A stretch of 64,000 nt of DNA, from the NCBI GenBank assembly GCA_945861715.1, contig CAMAVK010000001.1, positions 62,001-126,000 of the forward strand, in the 5' to 3' direction. The notes below the pieces were generated by a model. It ran no database searches and was not told the DNA's origin. It saw only the letters and a program-made list of their open reading frames with translations. The stretch is from Candidatus Woesearchaeota archaeon. Lineage in GTDB: Archaea > Nanobdellota > Nanobdellia > Woesearchaeales > GW2011-AR9. The first letter of the stretch is position 1, and each line of letters starts with the position of its first letter. Positions 43,345 through 43,917 of this stretch are shown in pieces. A program made the translations under genes and the position numbers.

Positions 43345-43551
43345 TCAAAACGTATAGGCTTTCCCAGCAAACTTTGTGCTACATTTTCGACACTGATAAA
43401 TACCTGCAGCAAGTCGAGAAACAGCTTCTCTATTACAATAAGGGCATTTATGACGTCCTCGATGAAGTGCTTCAATAAGTGCAAATTTAGCTCGTGGTTT
43501 TCGACCATAACGTGCTCCAAATCGTTTTGTTGATGGATTGGTTGTTGACAT
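43345..43551 (-). CDS. rpl37ae: 50S ribosomal protein L37Ae (eL43)
   Basis: 68 residues. STKRFGARYGRKPRAKFALI and HKCPYCNREAVSRLAAGIYQ then CRKCSTKFAG give the zinc-binding CxxC...CxxC of eL43 with its basic N-terminus. Slightly shorter than usual at the C-terminus. First gene of the operon rpl37ae-rpoP-pfdB-UPF0147; tRNA-Pro lies 20 bp upstream on the same strand. Confidence 0.95.
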   Translation of the reverse strand: MSTTNPSTKRFGARYGRKPRAKFALIEALHRGRHKCPYCNREAVSRLAAGIYQCRKCSTKFAGKAYTF

Positions 43552-43585
43552 AATTTCCTCCGTGATTGTAATGGGGCTGCCCGGA

Positions 43586-43622
43586 CAATCGCTGCAAGCT
43601 ACGTCTCAACGTGGCTTACTGG
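43586..43622 (-). other. Predicted tRNA-Pro intron 3 (T-loop, 59/60)
   Basis: About 37 nt. Removal restores the loop TTCGAAT between perfectly paired T-stem strands. Exon TTCG and intron CGAT pair at three of four positions, matching the pattern in the tRNA-Trp T-loop intron. Confidence 0.75.
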
Positions 43623-43643
43623 TTCGAACCGGGGTTCAATGGT

Positions 43644-43662
43644 TTTTTTGAGTCACTCATCA
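43644..43662 (-). other. Predicted tRNA-Pro intron 2 (anticodon loop, 37/38)
   Basis: About 19 nt, beginning TGATGAG and ending in an A-run. Exon TTTG (positions 32-35) pairs perfectly with CAAA near the intron's 3' end, giving a bulge-helix-bulge. The A-run leaves the 3' cut uncertain by 1 nt. Confidence 0.75.
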
Positions 43663-43678
43663 CCCAAACCATTAGTGA

Positions 43679-43709
43679 TAGGTACCTACAAGTAAAAATT
43701 ATTTACTCA
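43679..43709 (-). other. Predicted tRNA-Pro intron 1 (D-loop)
   Basis: About 31 nt inserted between positions 21 and 22 (or 20 and 21, as TA occurs at both ends). Removal joins the normal D-loop AGCCTGGTA to the D-stem strand TCAC. Confidence 0.7.
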
Positions 43710-43917
43710 TACCAGGCTACACTACAGCCCCAAGGGTACTTTTAAACTAAGACATCAAACTGAGAGCTATTTAAAAGGTTTATGGTAGTTTGGGAGTATG
43801 AGTTGGGAGTAACATAACCACTAGAAAAAGGCACAAAAATAGGATAAATACTGTTCAACAATCTATTTAGACCACCAAGATAAACTTATAATAATATAAT
43901 AAGCTTGAAATATACCC

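Follow-up and report, generated by a model that had tools for sequence, protein, structure and literature searches.

This locus raises the question of whether a tRNA gene that is interrupted in three of its loops can be a functional gene, and with which enzymes its archaeal host could then mature the transcript. Reading of the minus strand from 43731 to 43572 of the 64-kb stretch of DNA analysed here (the window) revealed a gene for tRNA-Pro(UGG) whose D-loop, anticodon loop and T-loop each carry an insertion. ARAGORN reported no tRNA in the window, this locus included, and Rfam at gathering score did not detect it either, as is to be expected from the three insertions. We therefore used a custom finder in which stems and conserved tRNA bases contribute to the score and each of the three loops may hold one intron; the locus scored 51.7 and was the sole match of at least 40 in the window, whereas 1.32 Mb of random sequence matched in dinucleotide content reached 40.2 at most. 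Deletion of the three insertions yields a 74-mer that regains the anticodon TGG, G37, the T-loop TTCGAAT and the discriminator A, and is called tRNA-Pro(tgg) by ARAGORN. This call bears out the original prediction that stems, G37 and T-loop are restored on removal, and its central claim of a tRNA-Pro(UGG) interrupted in three loops stands on the spliced 74-mer together with the orthologues, bulge-helix-bulge (BHB) geometry and exon-intron covariation presented below. When the mature tRNA was used to search the whole genome, the four exon pieces were retrieved as a full set at this locus alone, other matches being short and confined to the T-arm side of other tRNAs. A second, uninterrupted tRNA-Pro(UGG), which had been proposed as the sign of a pseudogene, was not found in the 98%-complete genome, where uninterrupted and singly interrupted tRNAs are readily recovered. 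Judging from its exons, intron sites, conservation and pairing geometry and from the presence of EndA and RtcB genes, we hold it to be highly probable that this is the functional and apparently sole tRNA-Pro(UGG) of this member of the Woesearchaeota, carrying three short BHB introns that would be spliced by EndA and RtcB. Two points in the gene itself weigh against this reading, namely that the anticodon-loop intron forms a relaxed BHB only and that the H helix of the T-loop intron has one mismatch.

Table 1. Parts of the interrupted tRNA-Pro(UGG) gene and its conserved neighbour, in window coordinates
Feature	Positions	Strand	Basis
Exon 1, nt 1-19 incl. 17a, GGGGCTGTAGTGTAGCCTGG	43712..43731	-	Sequence, mature-tRNA search, orthologue conservation
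D-loop intron, 30 nt, site 19/20	43682..43711	-	Border from intronless orthologues; geometry
Exon 2, CTATCACTAATGGTTTGGG, anticodon TGG, G37	43663..43681	-	Sequence; 100% identical to mature query
Anticodon-loop intron, 19 nt, site 37/38	43644..43662	-	Geometry; A-rich 3' end common to relatives
Exon 3, ACCATTGAACCCCGGTTCGAA	43623..43643	-	Sequence, mature-tRNA search
T-loop intron, 37 nt, site 59/60	43586..43622	-	BHB geometry
Exon 4, TCCGGGCAGCCCCA, CCA not encoded	43572..43585	-	Sequence, mature-tRNA search
rpl37ae (ribosomal protein L37Ae, 68 aa), conserved downstream neighbour	43345..43551	-	GGAGG before ATG; relatives

The borders of the insertions are given in Table 1. Lengths of about 31, 19 and 37 nt had been predicted, and the second and third of these hold. 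The 31-nt D-loop intron was rejected, because intronless orthologues read TTGG/CTATCAC (slash at the intron site) and thus place one more C in the exon, leaving an intron of 30 nt and a mature tRNA of 74 nt. An archaeal multiple-intron tRNA gene is expected to show a BHB motif at its borders, in a genome that encodes a splicing endonuclease and the RtcB ligase. Archaeal BHB motifs are built by pairing of intron bases -6 to -3 with the four bases of the exon that lie just ahead of the 5' bulge. Such a motif was recognised at each border: the D site is a full canonical hBHBh' motif (H helix GCCT with AGGT, 5' bulge GG/T, 3' bulge AC/C, 9-bp inner helix), the T-loop intron pairs TTCG with CGAT (3 of 4 pairs) between bulges AA/C and TG/T, with 5 of the first 6 positions of its inner helix paired, and the anticodon-loop intron pairs TTTG with CAAA but has a 4-nt 3' bulge and a weak inner helix.

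The same register recurs in the introns of relatives. At the T site all four pairs form in 31 of 43 introns versus 1.15 in shuffles (maximum 6), at the anticodon-loop site at least three pairs form in 46 of 50 versus 14 (maximum 22), and at the D site all four form in 11 of 29 versus 0.5 (maximum 3); 9 further D-site introns fit a register shifted by one, the mature D-loop being there one base longer. Inner helices are enriched at all three sites. Moreover, mature base 57 covaries with T-loop intron base -6, G57 occurring with C in 12 cases and T in 3, and A57 with T in 22 and C in 1 (Fisher p 2e-6, uncorrected for relatedness, the orthologues not being statistically independent), and exon base 17 covaries with its D-site intron partner (p 0.003, likewise uncorrected). 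The tRNA-Pro anticodon-loop intron is set apart from the other introns by sequence conservation across genera, a common TGAGCTTCGGCGATGACCGGAA...CAAAAAA form being found in several of them (L039, L044, L046, L049, L062, L064, L141 and L144); the 19-nt intron of the window may be a shortened version of it.

Maturation would then proceed as follows. In the precursor transcribed from the locus each tRNA stem would serve as outer helix, and the exon bases GCCT, TTTG and TTCG before the 5' cut regions would pair with intron bases near the 3' cuts to form the BHB; EndA would cut in both bulges of each motif and RtcB would join the exons into the 74-nt tRNA. The precursor is probably continuous with the rpl37ae message, and TTTTAAATA at 43776-43768 may be the promoter shared by the two genes. 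Their order, tRNA-Pro(UGG) followed by rpl37ae (43345-43731), is conserved in the family and as far as other orders within the class. As to the host, the suspected DPANN-like genome proved to be that of a woesearchaeon: the neighbouring DRG-type GTPase shares 71% identity with a MAG labelled Nanoarchaeota and 66-69% with several labelled Woesearchaeota.

A broad-specificity endonuclease, epsilon-type or heteromeric, had been expected; our search of the genome identified instead one alpha-type gene without a specificity loop, alongside a gene for the RtcB ligase. This EndA (L028:1135-1788) is a single-domain protein of 217 aa, which in alignment carries the same catalytic Y, H and K residues as the alpha4 endonuclease of M. 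jannaschii (PDB 1a79) and is co-linear with its subunit, from which it is set apart by some 45 additional residues at the N-terminus; the total length among relatives is 195-250 aa. The loop of crenarchaeal and ARMAN enzymes (CSL/ASL) is absent, FGNLSE-SGKV being uninterrupted at the point where some 9 additional residues stand in A. pernix and at most one in the other 15 aligned family EndA proteins. An EndA match over the family cut-off was present in 47 of 49 family genomes. Neither a second (beta) subunit nor a three-unit fusion was found in the genome, although a very diverged beta could escape profile searches.

This last point leaves room for removal of the introns by a heteromeric enzyme of broad specificity whose structural beta subunit has diverged beyond detection, which we regard as unlikely. 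EndA is about equally similar to the alpha subunit of the Nanoarchaeum equitans (alpha-beta)2 enzyme (125 bits) and to the M. jannaschii alpha4 enzyme (126 bits), and its W214, invariant in 16 homologues, aligns with a W of the A. pernix and N. equitans alpha subunits; W214 is a putative recognition residue, and recognition by Arg plus Trp has been described for the (alpha-beta)2 and epsilon2 types (PMC6379350). Nonetheless, genome searches with the PF01974 profile and 16 family EndA proteins retrieved this gene alone at E values up to 10, the further matches in family genomes were at chance level apart from a split hit confined to one place in G034, and a beta subunit resembling the N. equitans one ought to have shown up, since a single-sequence search finds the latter at 7e-14. 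A further point against the main reading is the kind of enzyme. The alpha4/alpha-type endonuclease has been called narrow in specificity (PMC6379350), so that efficient cutting of relaxed sites by EndA, which resembles this type, can only be presumed. The literature links relaxed BHB motifs with enzymes of the (alpha-beta)2 and epsilon2 types, and tRNA sets rich in introns with enzymes that bear the loop (PMC4033280, PMC6379350), and for this reason the group looks, from its gene content, like an exception to the rule relating enzymes and introns, unless a very diverged second subunit exists. That a plain alpha4-like endonuclease devoid of a specificity loop supports a Thermoproteales-like intron load, including D- and T-loop introns and relaxed sites, is in our judgement a proposition with equal weight on either side.

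The orthologues speak to whether the gene itself is alive. The tRNA place upstream of rpl37ae was read in members of the family, of the order and of the wider class, and the 90 genomes with a recognisable tRNA-Pro(UGG) were tabulated. Exons are strongly conserved and introns diverged, and all eight presence/absence combinations of the three sites (D, D-loop; AC, anticodon loop; T, T-loop) occur. All three introns are found in the window's genome and three others, while D+AC occurs in 6, D+T in 3 and AC+T in 11, the rest having a single intron or none. The family (37 genomes) comprises 7 genomes with none, 11 with D, 2 with AC, 2 with T, 6 with D+AC, 2 with D+T (one of them read by hand), 3 with AC+T and 4 with all three; two further members, read by hand beyond the 90, have D+T and at least D, respectively. 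Among 45 other genomes of the order the states are T (22), AC+T (8), none (10), AC (2), D (2) and D+T (1), and among 8 genomes of the class outside the order they are none (4), AC (2) and D (2). States vary even inside genera (g11, D or none; g21, AC+T, none or D+T; g26, AC+T or D). In the remaining sampled genomes the finder saw no tRNA-Pro(UGG) upstream of rpl37ae, for which loss of synteny, another anticodon, contig ends and complex genes are alike possible. Across the order the three sites recur as intron positions, with independent gains and losses. Three introns had been thought unusual for a DPANN-like genome, a view that does not survive this comparison, many relatives having two or three introns in the same tRNA.

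Since relatives keep a nearly unchanged gene with every combination from zero to three introns, the tRNA-Pro(UGG) gene is very probably not a broken copy but one that works and whose introns can be removed. A decayed pseudogene, struck by random insertions and replaced in function by another tRNA-Pro gene, would account for the failure of ARAGORN and Rfam and for the imperfect anticodon-loop site; it appears very improbable given that dozens of genomes conserve the exons intact, that the insertions are confined to three precise sites and that no replacement was present among the tRNAs recovered, and the orthologue series in large part refutes it. Group I introns, which are self-splicing and occur in rRNA genes of Woesearchaeota (PMC6125680), were rejected on length and have next to no probability, 30, 19 and 37 nt being far too short for a group I ribozyme, Rfam finding none in the window and the boundaries being explained by BHB geometry.

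The remaining tRNA genes of the genome place this probably functional, triply interrupted tRNA-Pro(UGG) in context. Matches of a T-loop pattern search (46 versus 12 for the reversed control, mostly chance) were kept if they lay inside a full tRNA. We recovered 31 tRNA genes with 41 introns, 29 of them having at least one; tRNA-Trp and tRNA-Tyr were not found in this genome census, whose incompleteness makes the resulting load of about 1.3 introns per gene only rough. For comparison, Thermoproteales are reported to have 0.84 per gene and archaea in general 0.21 (PMC8450103). A tRNA-Leu(UAA) gene (L137:453-642; G000 C2, ~300.8-300.9 kb) probably also has three introns, in the D-loop, anticodon loop and T-loop, its D-loop site not fitting the BHB register. 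All-against-all comparison of introns yielded one clear pair, the T-loop introns of this gene and the nearby tRNA-Thr(GGU) (score 33 versus a shuffle maximum of 26), and so close a likeness suggests copying of introns between tRNAs; the tRNA-Pro introns had no match above chance in this comparison. A 107-nt anticodon-loop intron in tRNA-Leu(CAA) (L027 mid-locus; G000 C1, ~243.9 kb) contains the words GTGATGA, CGATGA and CTGA, which recall box C/D RNAs; a small C/D RNA was considered, and Rfam gave no match to this intron. Two tRNA-His(GUG)-like genes (L024 and L003) were also noted; one is uninterrupted, and the other has a long insertion in its D-loop and a poorly formed anticodon stem. Because some standard finders miss such genes, as ARAGORN did throughout the window, the tRNA sets of these genomes may be under-annotated.

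Multiple-intron tRNAs are already known in archaea; what is new here is the lineage, the extent and the simple endonuclease. The closest counterparts come from Thermoproteales (Sugahara 2008; Fujishima 2010; reviews PMC4033280 and PMC8450103), in which a single tRNA can likewise carry as many as three BHB introns, at 37/38 and elsewhere, tRNA sets are rich in introns, and similar introns recur in different tRNAs; they belong, however, to the Thermoproteota, whereas the present genome is a woesearchaeal (DPANN) one in which no heteromeric endonuclease or specificity loop was found. Nanoarchaeum equitans and ARMAN (Micrarchaeota) likewise combine a small DPANN genome with tRNA introns that are multiple or non-canonical, but use (alpha-beta)2 and epsilon2 endonucleases (PMC6379350) in place of one alpha-type gene. 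Compared with the M. jannaschii alpha4 system, the window's genome differs in having introns in D- and T-loops as well as some relaxed sites. No report of tRNA introns in Woesearchaeota was found in the open literature searched.

If a plain EndA does serve these introns, the proposed rule that they need an (alpha-beta)2, epsilon2 or loop-bearing enzyme would be broken, and an order apparently managing with one simple endonuclease gene provides a test of the idea that intron spread followed enzyme changes. Because a single orthologous tRNA gene, marked by rpl37ae, shows all eight intron combinations across the order and its neighbours, the tRNA-Pro(UGG) genes form a clean natural series that can be used for measuring the gain and loss of tRNA introns.
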